Shown here in pieces: positions 14,942 to 26,850 of a stretch of 36,360 nucleotides of DNA. The notes beneath the pieces were generated by a model. It was given only the letters and a program-made list of their open reading frames with translations. It was not told the origin of the DNA and searched no databases. Position 1 is the first letter of the stretch. Every line of letters starts with the position of its first letter. This stretch comes from a virus, in the IMG/VR virus record IMGVR_UViG_3300020370_000017, positions 1 to 36,360 of that record; one strand, written 5' to 3'. The position numbers and the translations under genes are program-made.

Positions 14942-17900
14942 ATGGCTGATCTTCAAATAAGTCAATTGCCTCAGTTAGCTGAAGCAGATTTAGCGGCTGG
15001 AGATGAATTAGCCGTTGTAGACGGTAGTGCATCAGAAACGAAACGAATTACGGCTAAGGCTTTAGTAGAAAAAGGTGTTGCTTTAATCGATGCAGGTTCC
15101 ATCCCAGGTTCAGCACTTGCGGCTTTAGGAGCAAATACTGTTGTAACGGCAAGTATTACTGACTTAAATGTCACGGCATCAAAAATTGCAAACGCAACAA
15201 TAACAGCAACTCAGATAGCAAACGCAACAATAACTGGAGCCAAATTAGTCAACGATACTATTACTGCTACACAAATAGCTGCTAATGCAATAGGGGCAAG
15301 TGAATTAGCTGATGACGCTGTTGATACTGCTGCGATTTTAGATGCAGCAGTTACTAACGATAAGATTGCAAACGCAACGATTGCTTATGCAAAGTTAAAT
15401 CTAAGTGACGGAGATATTCCTGGTGCAAAATTAACTAATGACTCTGTTACTGCCACACAAATAGCAGCTAATGCAGTTGGTGCTAGTGAATTGGCTGATG
15501 ACGCTGTAGATACAAATGCAATAGCAAATTTAGCTGTTACATCAGGAAAGTTAGCAACTAATTCTGTTACCGCATCTAAAATAACTGATGGTGTTATTAC
15601 AGGTGCAAAACTTGTTAATGACACAATTACAGCTACTCAAATAGCGGCAAATGCTATTACTGCTTCTGAGTTAGCAGATGATGCTGTAGATACAAATGCA
15701 ATTCTTGATGATGCTGTAACTGCTGCAAAACTTGCGGCTGGTGCTGTTGATACAACAGCTTTAGGTGCAGCGGCTGTAACTGGAGCGAAAATTGCTAGTA
15801 CAACGATTACAGCAGCAAACATTGCGGCTGGCACAATTACAGCTACTGAACTTGCAGCAGATTCTGTAGGGGCTAGTGAAATAGCTGCTAATGCTGTAGG
15901 TGCTAGTGAGTTAGCTGACGATGCGGTTGATACTGCTGCCATAGTTAATGCAGCAGTCACCAATGCAAAGATTGCAGATGCAACTATTACTTATGCAAAA
16001 TTAAATCTTTCAGACGGTGATATTCCTGCTGCCAAGATTGCCGCTGGAGCAATTGGTAATACTCAGATAGCAGCAAATGCTGTTGGGGCAACTGAATTAG
16101 CAAATGACGCAGTTGATACCGCTGCAATTCAAAACTTAGCAGTAACTGGAGCAAAGATAGCTGCCAGCACAATTACAGGAGCAAAGATAGCTGCAACAAC
16201 AATTGAAGCTGGAAATATAGCTGCTAATACAATTACAGCCTCAGAAATAGCAGCAAATGCAATAGGTGCTTCAGAGTTAGCAGACAATGCAGTTGATACA
16301 GCGGCGATAGTAGACGCAGCAATTACTAACGACAAAATTGCAAATACAACGATTGCTTATGCAAAATTAAATTTATCAAATGGAGATATTGCTGGAGCGA
16401 AGATTGCTGATAATTCTCTTACAGCAACTCAAATAGCTGCTAACGCTATAGGTTCTAGTGAACTAGCAGATAATGCAGTTGACACCAGTGCTATTGCGGA
16501 TGATGCCGTCACAGGAGCAAAAATTGCAGCAGCAACAATTGAAGGAGCAAATATTGCTACTGGCACGATTACTGCAACTCAACTAGCTGCTGACTCTGTA
16601 GGCGCAAGCGAAATAGCAGCGAATGCGGTTGGGGCTTCAGAACTTGCAGACGATGCGGTAGATACAGCAGCAATAGCAAACTTGGCAATTACAGGAGCCA
16701 AGATTGCAAACGCAACCGTTACGGCGGCAAAGTTAAGTTTGTCTGCTGGAGATATTGATGGAACAAAAATTGCTAATGATTCAATAACAGCGACTCAAAT
16801 AGCAGCAAATGCAATAACAGCGAGTGAGTTAGCTGATGATGCGGTTGACACAGCCGCTATAGCTAATAACGCTGTAACAGCAGCAAAAATAGCAGCAAAT
16901 GCAGTTGGAGCATCAGAACTCGCAGACGATGCTGTTGATACGGCTGCTATTGCAGATGGTGCTGTTACTGCTGCCAAGATTTCAGGCACATTAAATACTG
17001 CAACTATTGCTGATAATGCAATAACAACAGCCAAGATTGCAGACGATGCGGTAACTAGTGCCAAGCTTGGAGCAAATGCAGTTGATGCAGCAGCCTTGGC
17101 TAATACTGCTGTTGGCACAGCAGCTATAGCGGATGCAGCGGTAACAGCAGCAAAAATCGGAACAGGTGCTGTCACAAATGCAAAATTAGGAGCAGATGCA
17201 GTAACAGCAGCAAAAATTACTGATGGAACTATTACAGCAGCAAAATTAGCTACTGCAAATATAGATAGATCGCTAAATGTAGCTTCTGGAAATTTAGGAA
17301 TCAATAATGTTATTTCGGCTGGAACTTCTGCTGGGATTACTTATAACGCCCAAGGCTTAATAACCGCTACAACTGCACTGGTAGCAAGCGATTTGCCTGT
17401 TGCAACTGCTACTGCCGTTGGAAGCGTTTCTGTTCCAACCGCAGGCGGTTTGACTGTTAGCGGTGCTGGTGCGTTGTCAATTGCAGCTACAACGACTGGA
17501 GCTACGGCGACAAAAGTTACTTTTAATAGTTTTGGACAAATAACAGGGACAGCAACATTAGGGGCTTCAGATTTACCTGTTGCAACTGCTAGTGCTGTTG
17601 GTGCGGTTTCCGTCCCAACTGGAGGCCCACTTTCGATAGATTCAAATGGTGCAATTACAGTTTCTGATTCAGGAGTAACAGCAGGTGTAGGTACAAAGCT
17701 TACGGTTGATGCAAAAGGTCGAGTAACTAACCTTGCAAGTCTTTCAGATAGTGATCTTCCTAATCACAGTGCAGCCTTAATTACTTCAGGAAGTATCCCA
17801 ACAGCAAGAATTGCAAATGATGCAATTACAGGAGTAAAACTTGCTAATGCTTCAACAACGCTATTTGGATCTGTAGCTCAGACAGGTTTCCCCACATCCG

Positions 17901-20900
17901 AGTTCACAGGGCAATTTTTCTTCGATTCTGTCTCTGAAGATTTATATATATATGATGGAAATGCTTATCAGCCAGTAACAACTTTAACAAAAGGTTCTCT
18001 GGTATTTGGTGGTACTTTTAACGCTTCAACAAGTAAAGTTGCAAGTGTAACAACCGCAGGTGCAGCAGCAGGTTTGACAGTTGGATCTAATGTTCCAACT
18101 CCGACAACTAGTACGGATGGTTTATATTTAGTGGTTGAAGCTTCTGGTACTCCAAGTGCGCCGGCTCCAGTAGTTGCTCTTGCTCCACCAGATTACATTT
18201 TAGGTGTTACAAATACATCTGGAAGTTCATGGGAAGAAATTGATTTATCGCAGACCGTGGCTGGGCAGGTTGCAAGCAATATTACCTTTACACCTTTTGG
18301 TCAACTTCAAAGTACAAATGTGCAAGATGCTCTTGAAGAATTAGAAACAGAGAAGTTAGCAAAAGCTGGTGGTACTGTTACAGGTGAGGTGCTAATAGGT
18401 AACACAGGAACACTTGTTTTTGAAGGTTCTAGTACAGACGCATATCAGACTACTTTAGGAGTTGTTAACCCAACTACAGCAGATAAAACAATACTTTTAC
18501 CTAATACTTCTGGAACTTTAATAACAAATAGTGATTCTGGCACAGTAACAAGTGCAATGATTGCAGATGCCACCATTGTTAATGGTGATATAAGTACATC
18601 TGCTGCAATTGCGTTTAGTAAATTAGCTGCTTTAACTTCTGCTCAAATTCTTGTTGGTAATGGATCAAATGTAGCCACATCAGTTGCAGTTACAGGGGAT
18701 ATAGCAATATCAAATGCAGGTGTAGTTTCAATTACGGCTAATTCGATTGTTGATGGTGATATATCTGGATCGGCTGCAATTTCTGGATCAAAAATTGTTC
18801 AAGGAACTACTTCTGTTCTAGGTGTTCTTCAACTAACAGACGCAGCAGATAGCACAAGTACTACTACGGCTGCTACTCCTGCTGCTGTTAAGACAGCTAA
18901 AGATGCTGCTGATGCTGCACAGGTAACTGCTGATGCGGCGTTGCCGAAAGCTGGTGGCACAATGACTGGCAATTTGATTCTGGATAATGCTTCGGAATTG
19001 CGTTTTACAGAAGCTGATTCAGATGGTGCGAATTACACAGCATTAAAAGCTCAGGCTCAGACTTCAGACATAACACTTACTCTTCCTGCTACAGCACCAA
19101 CTGCCAACCAAGTTCTTAAGGCTAATGCCAGCACACCTACCACTCTTGAATGGGCAACTGATACAACCAATACTGCTGCTGCTGATCTAACAGGTTCTAC
19201 TCTTGCTAGTGGCGTTACTGCCAGTTCTTTGACTTCGGTTGGGACTCTTTCTTCTCTAACTGTTAGTGGAACAATTACTGGAGATGTAACTGGAGACTTA
19301 ACTGGTAACGCAGATACAGCAACAATACTTGCTACGGCAAGAACAATAGGAGGAGTTAGTTTTAATGGTTCAGCAAATATAGATTTACCAGGCGTTAATA
19401 CTGCTGGCAACCAAAACACCACAGGAAATGCAGCAACAGCAACAAAGTTTGCTTCTGCGGTGACAATTGGTGGTGTGAGTTTTGATGGTTCAGCAAATAT
19501 TGATCTTGCAGGTGTTAATAGTGCTGGTAATCAAGACACTTCTGGAACAGCAGCACTTGCAACTCAGTTCACAGTCACAGCTAATAATTCTACAGATGAG
19601 ACTGTTTACCCTTTATTTGTTGACGGAGCAACAGGATCACAAGGAGCAGAAACAGATACAGGTTTAAGTTATAACCCTTCTTCTGGAGCCTTAACTGCAA
19701 CATCATTTGTAGGTGCATTAACAGGCAACGCTTCAACAGCAACAATCCTTGCCACAGCTAGAGATATTAACGGTGTTAGCTTTAATGGTTCTGCTGATAT
19801 AACAATTACTGCTGCTGCTGGGACTTTAACTGGTGCAACATTGGCTAGTGGGGTAACAGCTAGTTCATTAACTTCAGTTGGAACACTTACAGGTTTAACA
19901 AGTAGTGGTGATATTAATCTGAACGCTCAAGCAGACCTTCGGTTTAAGGATGCTGATAGCTCTCACTATGTCGCTCTTCAATCTCCTGCTTCTATTGCAA
20001 GTAGTTTTACTCTTACTCTCCCTTCGGCTGACGCTGCTGTTTCTGGCTATGTCTTAGCTAGTGATGGAGCAGGGACGTTATCGTGGGTTGATCCTGGTTC
20101 AACATCATCACCAACATTTACAGGAGATGTAAGTCTTACTAATGATGGTGCTTTAGTTGGCTTCTCAAATCTAAATGCAACTTATACAGGTAACGCAAAA
20201 ACATTAACGGTCACAGTTGCAACCAAGACTGGAGCGCATAGATATAACGGTTCTGGTTCTAGTTCTGGATACAAAATTGATGGTAAAGAATCTCCTTTCT
20301 TAACTCTTACACCAGGACGTACATATAAGTTTGATCAGGCTGATAGTTCTAACACAGGTCATCCTCTTCGTTTTTATTTAGAAGCAGATAAGACAACTGC
20401 TTACACCACAGGAGTTACTACTAGCGGAACTGCTGGTTCTTCTGGAGCTTATACACAAATAGCTGTTTCAGATACAACTCCTTCTGTTCTTCATTATCAA
20501 TGTTCTGCTCATTCCTTAATGGGAAATAGCGTTCAAACAAATAGTAATGCAGGAGTTGCTTCACTTGAAGTTAAGGCAGAGACATCAGACACAAGTTGTT
20601 TCCCTCTTTTTGTAAATGAAGCTACTGGTCTTTTAGCTCCAAAGGCAAACAACAGTCTTTTTTATAATTCATCAACTGGACAATTAAATGCAACTATTTT
20701 TTCTGGAACTTCTGCCTCTCTTACAAGTTTGGCACTTACTGGTAATGCCACAATTGGTGGCAATGCAACCATTACTGGAAATTTGGTTGTAAATGGAACC
20801 ACTACAACGGTTTCAAGTACCACAGTTGAAGTAGCTGACAAAAATATAGAACTTGGCAAAGTTTCGAGTCCTGATGATACAACCGCAGACGGAGGAGGTT

Positions 20901-22624
20901 TAACTCTTAAAGGTGCAACAGATAAGACATGGAATTGGGTTAATTCAACTGATGCTTGGACATCTTCCGAACATATTCAAGTTGCTAGTGGTAAGACATT
21001 TATTGGAGATGGCTCAACCTTAACTGCTTTAAATGCTTCAAACTTAAGCTCTGGAACTGTCAATGTCGCAAGACTTGGATCAGGAAGTTCTGTTACTACC
21101 AAGTTCCTAAGAGGAGACAATACATGGCAAACAATTTCTGCTACACCCGAAGGAACAGCAATACTTTCAACAGGCGAATCAGGTGGTACTAAGTTCCTAA
21201 GAGAAGACGGTGATGGAACGTGTTCTTGGCAGGCTGTTCCTGCGGCTGCTGCTGGTACGTTAACTGGCTCAACGCTTGCAAGTGGAGTAACAGCTAGTTC
21301 TCTGACTTCTCTTGGAACATTAACTGGCTTGACTGTTGCTGGAGATATGACATTAGATAACGGAACAAATGCTGGTAAAGATATATCGTGGGACGAGTCT
21401 GCTAATTCTCTAATATTTGAAAACGAAGTCAAAGCTCAGTTTGGCAATAGTACTCTTTTTCATAACAGCATCGATTTATATATTCAAAACGCAGTAGGAG
21501 ATATAAGATTTGAGCCTAAATCAGGTGAGCCTGGCCTTTGGCTGCATCGTGATGGTTCCGTCGAACTTTACGATGGGAACGCTGCTGGGGTGGCTGTTAA
21601 GAAATTTGAGACTACTGCAACAGGTGTAACAATAACAGGAACCTTAGTTGCTGATGGTTTAACTGTTGATGGTGATGTCACTCTGACAGGTGCAGCCGCA
21701 AATATCGTTTTTGATAAGTCAGAAGACGCTCTTGAATTTGCCGATAATTCTAGTGCTTTATTTGGAACTGGTGGTGACTTAACTGTTGCACATTATTCTT
21801 CTGGCAATCTTTCACGAATACATAATTCTGGTGCTGGTGGGTTAGATATTAAATCAACAAGCGGAGCAATAAGATTTAAGAGCGAGTCTGGTGGATCAGA
21901 ACAAACAGGAGCCACTTATACTCCTGCGGCTGGTTGGTCATTTGGACATGCAGGAGGAGAAAAACTTGCTACTAGTTCAACTGGAGTAACAATTACAGGA
22001 ACAGCTACAGCTACTACGTTTAGCGGATCAGGTGCTTCTTTAACAACATTAAATGCGTCAAACATTTCTAGTGGAACAATTGCAGCAGCTAGAGTTCCAA
22101 CACTCAACCAAGACACAACAGGATCTGCTGCAACATTAACAACAGCAAGAAATATTAATGGAACAAGCTTTGACGGCTCTGCAAATATAACGGTCACGGC
22201 TGCTGCTGGCACGTTAACTGGTGGAACTCTTGCCAGTGGAGTAACAGCTTCAAGCCTCACATCAGTTGGAACATTAACTGGGTTGACTGTTAGTGGAAAT
22301 ATTTCAATGACAGGAACAGGAGCAATTGATGTTGCTGCTGGAACAACAGCTCAAAGGCCTGGTTCTCCCTCAACTGGATTATTCAGATACAACACAACAG
22401 AGGGAGAGTTTGAAGGTTATGGAGCTAATGGTTGGGGTGCAATCGGAGGTGGTGGTGGTGGAGCAGTTGCAGGTGGACTTTATGAGTATTTAAGGAATCA
22501 AACTTCTAGTAGTAATTACAGTATTACAGCTAATTCTCAGGCTGATTCTTTTGGAACATTAACTGTTGCTTCTGGAACTTATATTGCAGTGCCATCTACT
22601 GCTAAATGGGTTGCTCACGGTTAA
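14942..22624 (+). CDS. Giant tail fibre protein (2560 aa)
   Basis: The largest gene in the window. Residues 1-60 (MADLQISQLPQLAEADLAAG...ETKRITAKALVE) form an attachment module seen in many phage fibres. Residues about 66-774 are a five-residue-period repeat domain. Residues about 775-1350 contain fibre modules such as GQVASNITFTPFGQLQSTNV and LPKAGGTMTGNL. Four copies of TLASGVTASSLTS(V/L)GTL occur near 19192, 19832, 21266 and 22220. A cupredoxin-like domain lies at about 1743-1870. Residues about 1950-2020 (VNGTTTTVSSTTVEVADKNI, LTLKGATDKTWNWVNSTDAW) match T4-like cyanophage fibres. The end (GTYIAVPSTAKWVAHG) looks natural rather than truncated. The role is host binding. Its stop codon overlaps that of the convergent minus-strand gene. 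Confidence 0.9.
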   Translation: MADLQISQLPQLAEADLAAGDELAVVDGSASETKRITAKALVEKGVALIDAGSIPGSALAALGANTVVTASITDLNVTASKIANATITATQIANATITGAKLVNDTITATQIAANAIGASELADDAVDTAAILDAAVTNDKIANATIAYAKLNLSDGDIPGAKLTNDSVTATQIAANAVGASELADDAVDTNAIANLAVTSGKLATNSVTASKITDGVITGAKLVNDTITATQIAANAITASELADDAVDTNAILDDAVTAAKLAAGAVDTTALGAAAVTGAKIASTTITAANIAAGTITATELAADSVGASEIAANAVGASELADDAVDTAAIVNAAVTNAKIADATITYAKLNLSDGDIPAAKIAAGAIGNTQIAANAVGATELANDAVDTAAIQNLAVTGAKIAASTITGAKIAATTIEAGNIAANTITASEIAANAIGASELADNAVDTAAIVDAAITNDKIANTTIAYAKLNLSNGDIAGAKIADNSLTATQIAANAIGSSELADNAVDTSAIADDAVTGAKIAAATIEGANIATGTITATQLAADSVGASEIAANAVGASELADDAVDTAAIANLAITGAKIANATVTAAKLSLSAGDIDGTKIANDSITATQIAANAITASELADDAVDTAAIANNAVTAAKIAANAVGASELADDAVDTAAIADGAVTAAKISGTLNTATIADNAITTAKIADDAVTSAKLGANAVDAAALANTAVGTAAIADAAVTAAKIGTGAVTNAKLGADAVTAAKITDGTITAAKLATANIDRSLNVASGNLGINNVISAGTSAGITYNAQGLITATTALVASDLPVATATAVGSVSVPTAGGLTVSGAGALSIAATTTGATATKVTFNSFGQITGTATLGASDLPVATASAVGAVSVPTGGPLSIDSNGAITVSDSGVTAGVGTKLTVDAKGRVTNLASLSDSDLPNHSAALITSGSIPTARIANDAITGVKLANASTTLFGSVAQTGFPTSEFTGQFFFDSVSEDLYIYDGNAYQPVTTLTKGSLVFGGTFNASTSKVASVTTAGAAAGLTVGSNVPTPTTSTDGLYLVVEASGTPSAPAPVVALAPPDYILGVTNTSGSSWEEIDLSQTVAGQVASNITFTPFGQLQSTNVQDALEELETEKLAKAGGTVTGEVLIGNTGTLVFEGSSTDAYQTTLGVVNPTTADKTILLPNTSGTLITNSDSGTVTSAMIADATIVNGDISTSAAIAFSKLAALTSAQILVGNGSNVATSVAVTGDIAISNAGVVSITANSIVDGDISGSAAISGSKIVQGTTSVLGVLQLTDAADSTSTTTAATPAAVKTAKDAADAAQVTADAALPKAGGTMTGNLILDNASELRFTEADSDGANYTALKAQAQTSDITLTLPATAPTANQVLKANASTPTTLEWATDTTNTAAADLTGSTLASGVTASSLTSVGTLSSLTVSGTITGDVTGDLTGNADTATILATARTIGGVSFNGSANIDLPGVNTAGNQNTTGNAATATKFASAVTIGGVSFDGSANIDLAGVNSAGNQDTSGTAALATQFTVTANNSTDETVYPLFVDGATGSQGAETDTGLSYNPSSGALTATSFVGALTGNASTATILATARDINGVSFNGSADITITAAAGTLTGATLASGVTASSLTSVGTLTGLTSSGDINLNAQADLRFKDADSSHYVALQSPASIASSFTLTLPSADAAVSGYVLASDGAGTLSWVDPGSTSSPTFTGDVSLTNDGALVGFSNLNATYTGNAKTLTVTVATKTGAHRYNGSGSSSGYKIDGKESPFLTLTPGRTYKFDQADSSNTGHPLRFYLEADKTTAYTTGVTTSGTAGSSGAYTQIAVSDTTPSVLHYQCSAHSLMGNSVQTNSNAGVASLEVKAETSDTSCFPLFVNEATGLLAPKANNSLFYNSSTGQLNATIFSGTSASLTSLALTGNATIGGNATITGNLVVNGTTTTVSSTTVEVADKNIELGKVSSPDDTTADGGGLTLKGATDKTWNWVNSTDAWTSSEHIQVASGKTFIGDGSTLTALNASNLSSGTVNVARLGSGSSVTTKFLRGDNTWQTISATPEGTAILSTGESGGTKFLREDGDGTCSWQAVPAAAAGTLTGSTLASGVTASSLTSLGTLTGLTVAGDMTLDNGTNAGKDISWDESANSLIFENEVKAQFGNSTLFHNSIDLYIQNAVGDIRFEPKSGEPGLWLHRDGSVELYDGNAAGVAVKKFETTATGVTITGTLVADGLTVDGDVTLTGAAANIVFDKSEDALEFADNSSALFGTGGDLTVAHYSSGNLSRIHNSGAGGLDIKSTSGAIRFKSESGGSEQTGATYTPAAGWSFGHAGGEKLATSSTGVTITGTATATTFSGSGASLTTLNASNISSGTIAAARVPTLNQDTTGSAATLTTARNINGTSFDGSANITVTAAAGTLTGGTLASGVTASSLTSVGTLTGLTVSGNISMTGTGAIDVAAGTTAQRPGSPSTGLFRYNTTEGEFEGYGANGWGAIGGGGGGAVAGGLYEYLRNQTSSSNYSITANSQADSFGTLTVASGTYIAVPSTAKWVAHG
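15137..17262 (+). repeat. Pentad (five-residue) repeat array inside the giant fibre gene
   Basis: About 140 tandem units of 15 bp encode a protein in which every fifth residue is Ile, Leu or Val. The intervening positions are mostly Ala, Asp, Asn, Thr and Ser, for example AVTAAKIAANAVGASELADD. Ten copies of a longer unit, close to GASELADDAVDTAAI, recur through the array. A spacer resembling AKLNLSDGDI interrupts it near 15390, 15995, 16360 and 16727. The spacing resembles pentapeptide-repeat or other beta-helical folds; the fold is inferred. Confidence 0.85.
20170..20556 (+). other. Cupredoxin-like domain within the giant fibre
   Basis: Residues about 1743-1870 of the fibre contain a compact, aromatic and His-containing segment unlike the low-complexity neighbours. 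It reads KTGAHRYNGSG, then FLTLTPGRTYKFDQADSS, GHPLRFYLEAD and VLHYQCSAHSLMGNSV. His1807, Cys1854, His1857 and Met1860 are arranged like the H...C-x2-H-x2-M ligand set of blue or red copper proteins. The strand pattern (TPGRTYKFD, HPLRFYL, LHYQCSAH) also fits a plastocyanin-type barrel. Similar segments occur in some cyanophage fibres as far as I recall. Copper binding is inferred from motif only. Confidence 0.65.
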
Positions 22625-24416: not shown

Positions 24417-25094
24417 CTATCTTGCAAATGGAGGTGTGGCTGGAAAATGATCATCTATAAAAATATTTAAAGTTAATCGTTCTGTTTCTCCATAACCAAA
24501 TGTTTGTGCAGCATGAAATTGTTGTCCATTAAACAAAAGTAATCTGTTATATACGTTTTTTATATTTATTGTTTCATAAAAATACGATTGATTACGTTCA
24601 AAAGCTTTTATATATTCTTTTTTGTCAAAAGGTTTTCCACTGTAAAGCTTTCTTTTATAGTTTAAGTCTTCTTGATAATAATTATAAATACCATTTTTAA
24701 AATTATAAATAGATGTTCCTGTGTTTTCTTGAGGATCTTTAGAAAGATAGACTAATCCTGCAAGCTGTTTGTAATCTTTGTGTATCCATCCTGTATTTGT
24801 AGGATCAAATTGATCTTTTTTTTCTTTTACAAAAGGTTTAATTTTTTGAAAATGTAATGAAGCAACCGTATTTTCAACTTGCTCTTGCCAAAATAAACTA
24901 TTTACTTTTCTAATAACATATTGACCAAAATCATAACATCGTTGGTCGTTAATAGTTGCTAAATTATCACATCTTATTCCAGGCCATCTGCCGCCACCAT
25001 ATTCGTCTTTTACATATTCAAGAGTATTAGAAAATTCAATAATTTTTTCTGGATCGGGGAAAAAATCGTCTACAACAGTAACAGGGAAAGACAT
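24417..25094 (-). CDS. 2OG-Fe(II) oxygenase-like protein
   Basis: A 225-residue protein with the metal-binding and cosubstrate residues of 2-oxoglutarate/Fe(II) dioxygenases: His105 and Asp107 (WIHKDY), His194 (QQFHAAQ) and Arg206 (ERLTLNIF). GTSIYNF after the first strand pair is also typical. The N-terminus (FPVTVVDDFFPDPEKI) fits DUF6445-like proteins. These enzymes usually hydroxylate proteins, nucleic acids or small metabolites; the substrate is unknown. The upstream neighbour is a clear paralogue whose stop codon directly precedes this start, so the two are co-translated. Confidence 0.8.
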   Translation of the reverse strand: MSFPVTVVDDFFPDPEKIIEFSNTLEYVKDEYGGGRWPGIRCDNLATINDQRCYDFGQYVIRKVNSLFWQEQVENTVASLHFQKIKPFVKEKKDQFDPTNTGWIHKDYKQLAGLVYLSKDPQENTGTSIYNFKNGIYNYYQEDLNYKRKLYSGKPFDKKEYIKAFERNQSYFYETINIKNVYNRLLLFNGQQFHAAQTFGYGETERLTLNIFIDDHFPATPPFAR

Positions 25095-25793
25095 TTAATT
25101 AATTCTTTCTAATGGATTTATTGAATAGTTATTGTTATATTTACATTGAATATTAGACGGAAAAAGTATTAATCTTGCTACATACCTTGTTTCTTCTGTA
25201 AAAGATGTTACACCATGCCAAAGGCTAGATGGAAAAATAACAGCTCTGTTTTGTTTGTTTTGAATTTTTGCAGTTTCTTTAAAGTTATTAAAGTATTTAT
25301 TGAAAATAATTTCTCTTTCTTCTGTTATTTCTTTATCTTGATTATATGCTTGTAAAGCATTTTGAAAATCTTCTACATAAGTATGTCCTTGCAGAAAGAC
25401 ATCTTGTTTTCTTTCGTAAAAACTTGTTCCTACATTAGTTTCTTTATGGTCGCTTAAGTAAATAATTACAGTAAGATTTGCCCCGAAAACATTGTCACAG
25501 TGAATTGCTCCTTTGTTAAAAGTTTGATTTGTTGATTTAAAAGAATCAATTTTATGAAAATCTATTGTAAGATTGCAATTTGCGATGTAGTCATTAGGAG
25601 GCCAAAAAATAGATATTACTTTTTCTGTTATGTAGTTATGTAATCCTAAATCTAATTTTTCCAAGCCTAAGCTTGAAGTTACACCAGTAGCACTGGAGCG
25701 TTTTACTTCGTACTCTGTGTTTTTGGCAATATTTAAAACGTATTCAACGTCAGGGAAAAAATTATCAATAAATAAAACAGGAAAAGATTTCAT
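25095..25793 (-). CDS. 2OG-Fe(II) oxygenase-like protein (paralogue of the next gene)
   Basis: A 232-residue protein with His98 and Asp100 (GAIHCDN), His193 (SSLWHGVTS) and a distal Arg207 (VARLILF). It shares with its neighbour the opening FPVLFIDNFFPDVE, the VGTSFYERK turn and the same spacing of the catalytic parts. The pair therefore arose by duplication, although the sequences have diverged widely. It is the first gene of the minus-strand block and starts about 100 nt from the divergent block. A fibre-modifying role is only a guess from position. Confidence 0.8.
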   Translation of the reverse strand: MKSFPVLFIDNFFPDVEYVLNIAKNTEYEVKRSSATGVTSSLGLEKLDLGLHNYITEKVISIFWPPNDYIANCNLTIDFHKIDSFKSTNQTFNKGAIHCDNVFGANLTVIIYLSDHKETNVGTSFYERKQDVFLQGHTYVEDFQNALQAYNQDKEITEEREIIFNKYFNNFKETAKIQNKQNRAVIFPSSLWHGVTSFTEETRYVARLILFPSNIQCKYNNNYSINPLERIN

Positions 25794-25895
25794 AAAAAAT
25801 AAGGTGTAAAAGATAACCTAAACATAGGTTTAGTAAATAAACTATAGCTATCGTTTGCGAATTTGCTAGTATCGTAAAGCATATACACTTTATCT
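25794..25895. promoter_or_regulatory. Divergent intergenic region with inverted repeats
   Basis: This 102-bp AT-rich region separates the oxygenase pair from the plus-strand block and must hold both start signals. It contains two interleaved inverted repeats: AACCTA/TAGGTT (25815-25830) and CTAAAC/GTTTAG (25818-25833). They could be a protein-binding site. TTTGCGA at 25854 and TATACA at 25882 are 21 nt apart, too far for a standard sigma-70 promoter. No promoter is claimed with confidence. Confidence 0.35.
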
Positions 25896-26099
25896 ATGTC
25901 TGCTATCTCTGAATTTGATGCTGCTGTTGCTGAATACAATGGCATCGTTGCTAGACAACAAGAAGCAAATAAAGCTGAACTTCAGCCTCTTGGTCAAAGA
26001 TTACAAGAATTACAAGCCAAAGTTATAGAAGAAGCTAGAGAAGCTGATAAACATGTTTGTGATCCAAATGCTAATAACGGTGAGGTGTCTCCTGAATGA
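25896..26099 (+). CDS. Small coiled-coil protein
   Basis: A 67-residue protein, strongly helical and charged (FDAAVAEYNGIVARQQEANK, ELQPLGQRLQELQAKVIEEA), ending in CDPNANNGEVSPE. The heptad-like spacing of Leu, Val and Ala suggests a coiled coil of about 50 residues. It begins the plus-strand block and its stop overlaps the next start (ATGA). The function is unknown; structural or assembly help is plausible because the downstream genes include cyanophage structural proteins. Confidence 0.6.
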   Translation: MSAISEFDAAVAEYNGIVARQQEANKAELQPLGQRLQELQAKVIEEAREADKHVCDPNANNGEVSPE

Positions 26100-26302
26100 T
26101 AAAAATAATAACTTGGATTAATTTCGCTGCTTTCATTTTGGGGGTAGCGAGTTTAGGTGGTGCATTTATTTTTAGATCAAAAATCTTTGATGCAGTACTT
26201 GATGGCGTTAAAAAAGAACTTCCTTCTTTAGTTCAAGATGCTATGCCAGAAATTCCAACCATTCCTTCTTCTACTGGCAGTGTTAATCCATTCGCCAAAT
26301 GA
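26096..26302 (+). CDS. Small single-pass membrane protein
   Basis: A 68-residue protein with a hydrophobic N-terminal segment (about residues 4-26, IITWINFAAFILGVASLGGA) followed by FRSKIFDAVLDGVKKEL. It ends in a Pro/Ser/Thr tail (MPEIPTIPSSTGSVNPF). Short cyanophage proteins with the same layout occur near tail and fibre genes, from memory. It overlaps its neighbours on both sides by 4 nt (ATGA), so its synthesis is coupled. A role at the membrane is inferred; no enzymatic motif is present. Confidence 0.6.
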   Translation: MIKIITWINFAAFILGVASLGGAFIFRSKIFDAVLDGVKKELPSLVQDAMPEIPTIPSSTGSVNPFAK

Positions 26303-26850
26303 TTAGTTGTATAGATAATTTTTTAGACCAAGATGATTTTATAAAAGTAAAAGATTTAATAACTTCTCCAATGTTTTCGTGGCATTTTAGTCAAATTTTA
26401 AACGATGAAGATAAAGAAATATCAACCCAAGTAGATAATAAAAAAGTAAAAGAAAAAATTAAACAATCTTTTTGCCAAAGTAATTTTAATTATCAATTTG
26501 TTCATTTATTTTATTATAATAATATTCCTACATGTACTTATTTTCAAAACTATATTGAACCAATTTACAATCTTTTAAAAGGAAAAGCGTTAATTAAAAT
26601 TAAAGCAAATTTAACTTCGCAAACAACAGATCATATTCTTTCGGGTTTTCATATTGATGCTTTTGAAGATAATTACACTTCAATTTTTTATATTAATAAT
26701 AATAATGGTTATACAGAATTTTTAGATGGAACTAAAATTGAAAGTAGAGAAAATCGTATGCTTACTTTTAGAGGAAATTGCTATCATAGTGGAGTTAGTT
26801 CAACAGATCAACTAGCAAGGATTGTTTTAAATTTCAATTACTTTAAGTAA
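26299..26850 (+). CDS. 2OG-Fe(II) oxygenase-like protein (third copy, plus strand)
   Basis: A 183-residue protein with His118 and Asp120 (GFHIDAF), His163 (GNCYHSGVSS) and Arg174 (LARIVLNFNY), the full 2OG/Fe(II) set. The segment SIFYINNNNGYTEFLDGTKI and ESRENRMLTFRG matches cyanophage oxygenases, and the N-terminus (MISCIDNFLDQDDF) also fits. It is only distantly similar to the two on the opposite strand, so it is probably a separate acquisition. The flanking genes look structural, so the substrate could be a virion protein or a host target. Confidence 0.82.
   Translation: MISCIDNFLDQDDFIKVKDLITSPMFSWHFSQILNDEDKEISTQVDNKKVKEKIKQSFCQSNFNYQFVHLFYYNNIPTCTYFQNYIEPIYNLLKGKALIKIKANLTSQTTDHILSGFHIDAFEDNYTSIFYINNNNGYTEFLDGTKIESRENRMLTFRGNCYHSGVSSTDQLARIVLNFNYFK

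Follow-up and report, generated by a model that had tools for sequence, protein, structure and literature searches.

The locus described here raises the question of whether a phage tail fibre can contain a cupredoxin-type copper site and, if so, what such a site would do there. We analysed a virus record of 36,360 bases, the whole of which is referred to as the window; it codes for capsid, tape-measure, tail and fibre proteins. The capsid protein shares 40-44% identity with its counterparts in Roseobacter phage CRP-811 and in Synechococcus phages S-LBS1, S-CBS1 and S-CBS3, and a megablast search with the first 24 kb of the window returned no match among phage records; the phage is uncultured and, judging from its relatives, probably of marine origin. 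The ORF of interest encodes a protein with short repeats throughout and with 3 Cys, 13 His and 6 Met in its 2560 residues. Its identity as a tail fibre is indicated by whole-protein matches to PHROG families, namely phrog_892 (9.6e-94), phrog_30742 (3.8e-72) and further tail-fibre families, and by the tape-measure and tail genes located upstream of it.

A first-pass annotation of this DNA had proposed a cupredoxin-like copper-site domain embedded in the fibre, with H1807, C1854, H1857 and M1860 as the ligands. The four residues stand in the ORF where they had been placed, and the segment that contains them is indeed distinct, although its proposed start at 20170 is out of frame (residue 1743 starts at 20168). 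The family profile bounded the domain at residues 1752-1866 in one search and 1754-1864 in another. Cys1854 sits in Y-Q-C-S-A-H-S-L-M-G, 47 residues past a His, and is one of only three Cys residues in the ORF; the next, C1886, lies 32 residues further on in the following segment. A His-Arg-Tyr triplet at residues 1766-1768 (window 20237-20245) is invariant in the 20 window-type rows of alignment A1 and is missing from the S-TIM66-, S-B68- and P-HM1-type copies of alignment A2.

Table 1. Positions in the window of the giant fibre ORF, its cupredoxin-like domain, the presumed copper ligands and the flanking segments.
Feature	Position	Strand	Basis
Giant tail-fibre protein, carrier of the domain	14942..22624	+	Open frame of 2560 aa; PHROG tail-fibre families
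Fibre segment upstream of the domain, residues 1693-1732, in large part conserved along with it	20018..20137	+	9 clusters in 48 copies
Cupredoxin-like domain, residues 1752-1866	20195..20539	+	Family profile E 4.4e-58; AlphaFold2; structure matches
His1807, presumed first copper ligand, followed by Pro	20360..20362	+	His in 96% of 106 non-redundant copies
Cys1854, presumed thiolate ligand	20501..20503	+	Cys in 95% of 102 non-redundant copies with a residue in this column
His1857, presumed third ligand	20510..20512	+	His in 96% of 102 copies
Met1860, presumed axial ligand	20519..20521	+	Met in 91% of 101 copies
Downstream segment, residues 1874-1913, varying between close relatives	20561..20680	+	27 clusters in 48 copies

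With a single sequence at hand, as was the case at first pass, the motif could have arisen by accident from dispersed residues in a fibre of low complexity. Close relatives were collected from IMG/VR with six peptide patterns that included neither ligand His nor the Cys (one pattern includes the Met), and the best 80 of 351 loci were examined. The order H...C-x2-H-x2-M is kept in all 79 complete copies among them (61 + 18 loci) and is thus real; the 80th relative, L070, ends before the Cys. From the composition of the fibre ORF, C-x2-H-x2-M would be expected about 4e-5 times. Together with the confident fold prediction described below, these results refute a chance origin of the motif, whose probability we regard as negligible.

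A family-wide profile search extended the comparison to 442 domain copies in 336 records. The four ligand columns read HCHM in 414 copies, HCHQ in 11, HCHA in 5, HCHL in 1 and another combination or a gap in 11, counts that are inflated because part of the collection was gathered with later patterns that themselves include ligand residues. In the five HCHA copies, a Met is found one residue further on. Joint loss of the Cys and the second His is less open to this bias than the ligand counts: among 102 non-redundant copies with letters in both columns, 97 have both residues, 4 have neither and 1 has the His only (Fisher 1.2e-6). The equivalent of His1857 is therefore lost in four of the five non-redundant copies without the Cys, the exception being L087. 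Pro follows the first His in 87% of 106 non-redundant copies.

Replacement and loss of ligands were also observed. Gln is the commonest replacement of the Met (11 of 442 copies), and Gln at this place is the natural axial ligand of stellacyanin-type copper proteins. The motif C-x2-H-x2-Q occurs in 10 copies of large cyanophage-like proteins, in L286 (frame from base 328, residues 1398-1524), L268, L270, L271, L287, L288, L289, L310, L313 and L332; the 11th copy is L200, on a SAR86 contig. In a degenerate fibre copy, L410 (frame from base 3, residues 5-84), the Cys and Met are kept and both His residues are replaced, by Phe and Gln. Some copies have lost all ligands (YDYR, YDFG). The four ligands are lost in giant proteins of Flavobacteriaceae, L212 (frame from 2389, residues 58-159) and L214 (frame from 2329, residues 61-161), and a second domain copy in these proteins retains the site.

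A disulfide role for the conserved Cys was also considered. Leaving the window itself uncounted, no Cys follows within 60 residues in 76 of 78 close relatives, and a 60-residue stretch upstream is free of Cys in 80 of 81, which makes such a role unlikely for the family; a C1854-C1886 disulfide could still form in the window fibre itself.

The structure of residues 1740-1872 was predicted by AlphaFold2 from a hand-picked alignment of 118 rows. The barrel that had been anticipated from the strand pattern at first pass was recovered with confidence (mean pLDDT 90.2, pTM 0.86). In cupredoxins, the first His ligand stands before a strand, the Cys closes the next-to-last strand, and the second His and the Met lie in the loop after it. 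The model places all four residues accordingly along the predicted strands, with H1807 (model residue 68) just ahead of a strand, C1854 (model residue 115) at the end of the next-to-last strand, and H1857 and M1860 (model residues 118 and 121) in the loop preceding the last strand.

Comparison of the model with solved structures by Foldseek gave cupredoxins for all of the top 50 matches listed, including rusticyanin, multicopper oxidases, two-domain laccases and copper nitrite reductase; these superpositions are loose (TM about 0.4-0.5, rmsd 5-8), with 8 matches at E 0.001 or better. The top 50 matches listed by VIA-align are likewise all cupredoxins, and 13 of 999 chains reach Z 8. The best is rusticyanin 2cal (Z 9.5, rmsd 2.8, 110 aligned), followed by the N-terminal domain of the three-domain copper nitrite reductase 2dv6 (Z 9.2, rmsd 2.9, 102 aligned), at 12-17% sequence identity to the window domain. 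These closest structural matches are cellular enzymes or electron carriers. Among predicted viral structures, 67 share the domain fold at E 0.001 or better; they include "beta-sandwich proteins" from Pithovirus and Marseillevirus records (ranks 26, 27, 29 and 30).

Homology to known blue copper proteins could not be read from the window copy directly. The window domain has no match at E 10 or below to Pfam Copper-bind (PF00127, cut-off 21.2 bits) or to PDB chains, and none in NCBIfam at 0.01, including plastocyanin TIGR02656 (cut-off 87.85 bits) and amicyanin TIGR02657 (cut-off 110.2 bits); a match to Pfam PF25489, "At5g54830-like", is weak (0.0047, 17.3 bits against a cut-off of 27). The P-HM1 copy of the domain also falls below these cut-offs, with 19.2 bits for Copper-bind, 19.3 for plastocyanin and 16.6 for amicyanin. 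This copy does match plastocyanin 1b3i at 7.5e-5, and its model is a cupredoxin (pLDDT 97.7) whose nearest structure is 2dv6 (Z 10.9) and whose Foldseek matches include plastocyanins. When compared by hhalign, window-type alignment A1 and P-HM1-type alignment A5, which is independent of it, match over 76 columns (probability 97.1, E 5.1e-11), and their H, C, H and M positions coincide. It is this link from window-type to P-HM1-type copies that carries the homology argument.

At the far end of the chain, profile A4 found a standalone 134-aa protein with a hydrophobic leader in a Prochlorococcus genome (L426 396-800; E 1.2e-7). This protein is 44% identical to the P-HM1 virion-protein copy and passes Pfam Copper-bind (33.8 against 21.2 bits); compared with A1 directly it gives a weak match (probability 73.6, E 2.9e-5). 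A similar 131-aa protein with a hydrophobic leader, from a Bacteroidetes genome (L427 214-609), passes no cut-off. Of these two cupredoxin-like proteins, the one from Prochlorococcus is a possible host source of the module.

The 118 members of A4 include 6 that match Copper-bind (best 5.1e-5), 6 plastocyanin (best 1.1e-5), 3 amicyanin, 1 pseudoazurin and 1 rusticyanin. Four of the six plastocyanin matches, and every match to the amicyanin, pseudoazurin and rusticyanin models, belong to four P-HM1-type rows. Little direct signal thus comes from the rest of the alignment, and the A4 match to the Prochlorococcus protein may be driven by the same four rows. The rusticyanin match, at 0.0063, was discounted because A4 matches at 0.003-0.006 include unrelated NCBIfam models (a lipoprotein, a ribosomal protein and two choice-of-anchor domains). 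Family profiles gave marginal cupredoxin matches (pseudoazurin 0.0073, plastocyanin 0.0094); both profiles include P-HM1-type rows, and antibody or immunoglobulin chains stand among the weaker matches of each. The argument therefore rests on the homology chain and the fold. The search for cupredoxin profiles suggested at first pass thus failed for the window copy by itself and succeeded by way of the P-HM1-type virion-protein copy as intermediate, and common descent with known blue copper proteins is detectable through P-HM1-type copies only. We hold it as nearly certain that the window domain is homologous to cupredoxins.

It could be argued that the domain is a generic immunoglobulin-like or carbohydrate-binding sandwich in which the ligand motif is left over from an ancestor and holds no metal. 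The copies that have lost every ligand would fit this explanation, as would weak Pfam matches among the 118 members (CBM_4_9 in 4, best 0.0017; Ig_GEX2_N in 3, best 0.00016; Big_1 in 1) and one structural relative among the predicted viral structures that carries an immunoglobulin-domain name. Against it, the ligand columns are the 4th, 5th, 7th and 8th most conserved of 104 and are in most cases lost jointly, cupredoxins are the closest structures, and Copper-bind is matched by some members as given above. We consider a generic sandwich unlikely.

The surroundings of the domain show it to be an exchangeable module. Non-redundant close relatives (48 copies) show 9 kinds of upstream flank as against 27 kinds of downstream flank. 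In the 15 nearest relatives, the domain is 86-96% identical to that of the window and the upstream flank 60-97%, and the downstream flank, with 3-12% ungapped identity, is unrelated. We also examined fibre loci that share a shaft module located downstream of the domain in the window, taking the best 80 of 449 confirmed loci with up to 3 kb on each side. A domain copy, degenerate in one case, was present in at least 4 of the 80, which is a lower bound because some of these loci end early. By these sequence comparisons, the domain is optional, and an exchange junction lies just after it.

The first-pass annotation had treated a tail fibre with such a fold as an oddity. This did not hold, as many proteins of marine phages contain a related domain. 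By tblastn, a window-like query matched 40 of 50,697 phage records, 6 of them with at least 80% coverage; these copies are found in Synechococcus, Prochlorococcus, Methylophilales and Pelagibacter phages, other cyanophages and single-cell marine viruses. An S-B68-type query matched 178 phage records, 51 with at least 80% coverage (60 matches listed), and a P-HM1-type query matched 50, 11 with 80% coverage (40 matches listed); many of the partial matches listed show no complete site because the alignments stop before the Cys loop. The proteins that carry the domain are labelled as tail fibre, baseplate wedge (gp7), gp9 connector, virion structural protein, S8/subtilisin-like peptidase or hypothetical and, by label, span fibre, baseplate and structural proteins of cyanophages, pelagiphages and methylophages. 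All 118 domain-family members match phrog_27200, labelled as of unknown function, and 113 of the 118 match phrog_30742 (tail fibre); neither label mentions copper.

The domain had no match in plasmid records. In the genome collection, the best 80 of 86 confirmed loci were examined, and two lie in contigs longer than 1 Mb. In one, from SAR86, the domain lies at the C-terminal end of a 389-aa ORF. This ORF overlaps another of 139 aa whose start is lipoprotein-like, and the neighbours of the 389-aa ORF look like housekeeping genes by sequence. In the other, from a Bacteroidetes single cell, the domain is part of a giant repeat protein. Viral and cell-genome copies interleave in a tree of 130 domain copies, with 25 label changes of which at least 10 are forced by supported branches. 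We claim no direction of transfer because the tree has few columns, 49 open forks and an unsettled bootstrap, and because "cell" contigs from single-cell or metagenome assemblies may be phage DNA.

Sequence or prediction provides the domain, its fold and ligands, their joint conservation, its modularity, and its relatives in virion proteins and leader-bearing small cell proteins. On this basis we propose that the fibre has taken up, as an exchangeable module, a cupredoxin-family domain with an intact His-Cys-His-Met type-1 site whose loop is of the short kind, C-x2-H-x2-M. Each domain would bind one copper ion, which would lock the loop carrying the Cys, His and Met, and the domain would serve the fibre as an element of adhesion or receptor contact. 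Phage proteins fold in the cytoplasm of the host, which has little free copper, and this counts against loading with copper; the metal would probably be gained outside that compartment, either once the cell has lysed or at the surface of a host. That the domain binds copper in nature is probable, and we give the full explanation (a metal-locked cupredoxin module used for contact or adhesion) the same good measure of confidence. The interpretation made at first pass is supported in fold and ligands; copper binding is a prediction, and the host cupredoxin partner also raised there is a conjecture.

Adhesion or contact is the reading we favour for the main role of the domain, and we hold it with a confidence somewhat short of even. 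A close rival is that the metal is purely structural, with copper (or zinc) stapling the barrel in the fibre for mechanical stability and no contact with the host. Metal sites in fibres have precedent in the iron of T4 gp37 and in the HxH sites predicted for an Alteromonas phage (accessible text of PMC11705849), and some carriers of the domain, baseplate wedge proteins among them, are structural proteins with no obvious part in receptor binding. A structural staple sits less easily with segment exchange just after the domain, which resembles host-contact evolution but does not prove it. The Cys-His-His-Met set with Met-to-Gln variation is also typical of copper centres and not of zinc staples. 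We regard a purely structural metal, and mechanical stability as the main role, as a tentative possibility behind metal-locked contact.

The fold and ligands are those of electron-transfer cupredoxins, and small leader-bearing relatives exist in marine bacteria; a working redox centre, through which the virion would give electrons to or take them from a cell surface or seawater copper, was also weighed. A PHROG scan of the 16 other ORFs of the window recognised no redox partner (two of them match 2OG-Fe oxygenase or coat families only), and a particle without metabolism would have no obvious benefit from such a centre. Redox work is improbable in our estimation. Contact and stability are favoured over electron transfer because of the place of the domain at an exchange junction, its occurrence in fibres and apparent bacterial surface proteins, and the precedent of the iron sites.

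In its beta-barrel and in the order H...C-x2-H...M, the window domain resembles the plastocyanin/azurin family (PF00127; TIGR02656, TIGR02657), from which it differs in being part of a giant fibre instead of a free protein and in matching none of the models. Classical blue copper proteins have Asn or Ser after the first His, with His-Asn in plastocyanin and azurin, whereas the window domain has His-Pro, a feature of the first type-1 ligand of multicopper oxidases. Its loop C-x2-H-x2-M is amicyanin-like; that of plastocyanin is C-x2-H-x4-M. Immunoglobulin-like and other add-on domains of phage virion proteins are exchangeable surface modules, as the window domain appears to be, but lack a copper-type ligand set.

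The nearest known parallel in a phage fibre is the HxH iron site, found at the tip of the T4 gp37 fibre and predicted in the fibre of Alteromonas phage R22Y, for which a host-contact role has been proposed in the "Ferrojan/Trojan horse" hypothesis (as set out in the available sections of PMC11705849). Both cases place metal ligands in a phage fibre. HxH sites hold iron between His pairs along a trimer, whereas the window has a folded one-chain domain with Cys and Met ligands. In the open-licence literature, with subscription papers mostly outside the search, we found no cupredoxin in a phage virion. Viral nirK, in the accounts available in part, is a separate metabolic gene and not a virion domain; the S-SM1 virion is listed with 41 proteins in the accessible text of Sullivan 2010 (PMC3037559); and the Melnitz paper (PMC9004378) describes tail fibres, with the EM grid as the sole "copper" in its accessible text. 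Cupredoxins and modular fibres are each known, and their combination appears to be new.

Should the domain prove to bind copper, a trace metal would be present at a defined protein site in viruses that are widespread in the ocean, with a bearing on phage adsorption, on marine copper chemistry and on the re-use of redox-protein folds as adhesion modules. The analysis also assigns a fold, and a likely cofactor, to a domain whose PHROG families carry the label "unknown function" or are named as no more than tail or baseplate proteins. The cultured phages P-HM1, P-SSM2, Bellamy and Melnitz would be suited to testing it. A broader and more doubtful speculation is that many marine tailed phages are copper particles, which have built small host-type blue copper proteins into their fibres, baseplates and further virion proteins, supply these with copper outside the cytoplasm, and exploit copper state or a copper-handling host surface in adsorption, as a copper counterpart of the "Ferrojan horse".

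Elsewhere in the window, three adjacent ORFs at 24417-26850 (two on the minus strand and one on the plus strand) show matches to phrog_274, an endonuclease V by its label, and both minus-strand ORFs also match phrog_1644, a minor coat protein; the three are possibly paralogues with conflicting labels.
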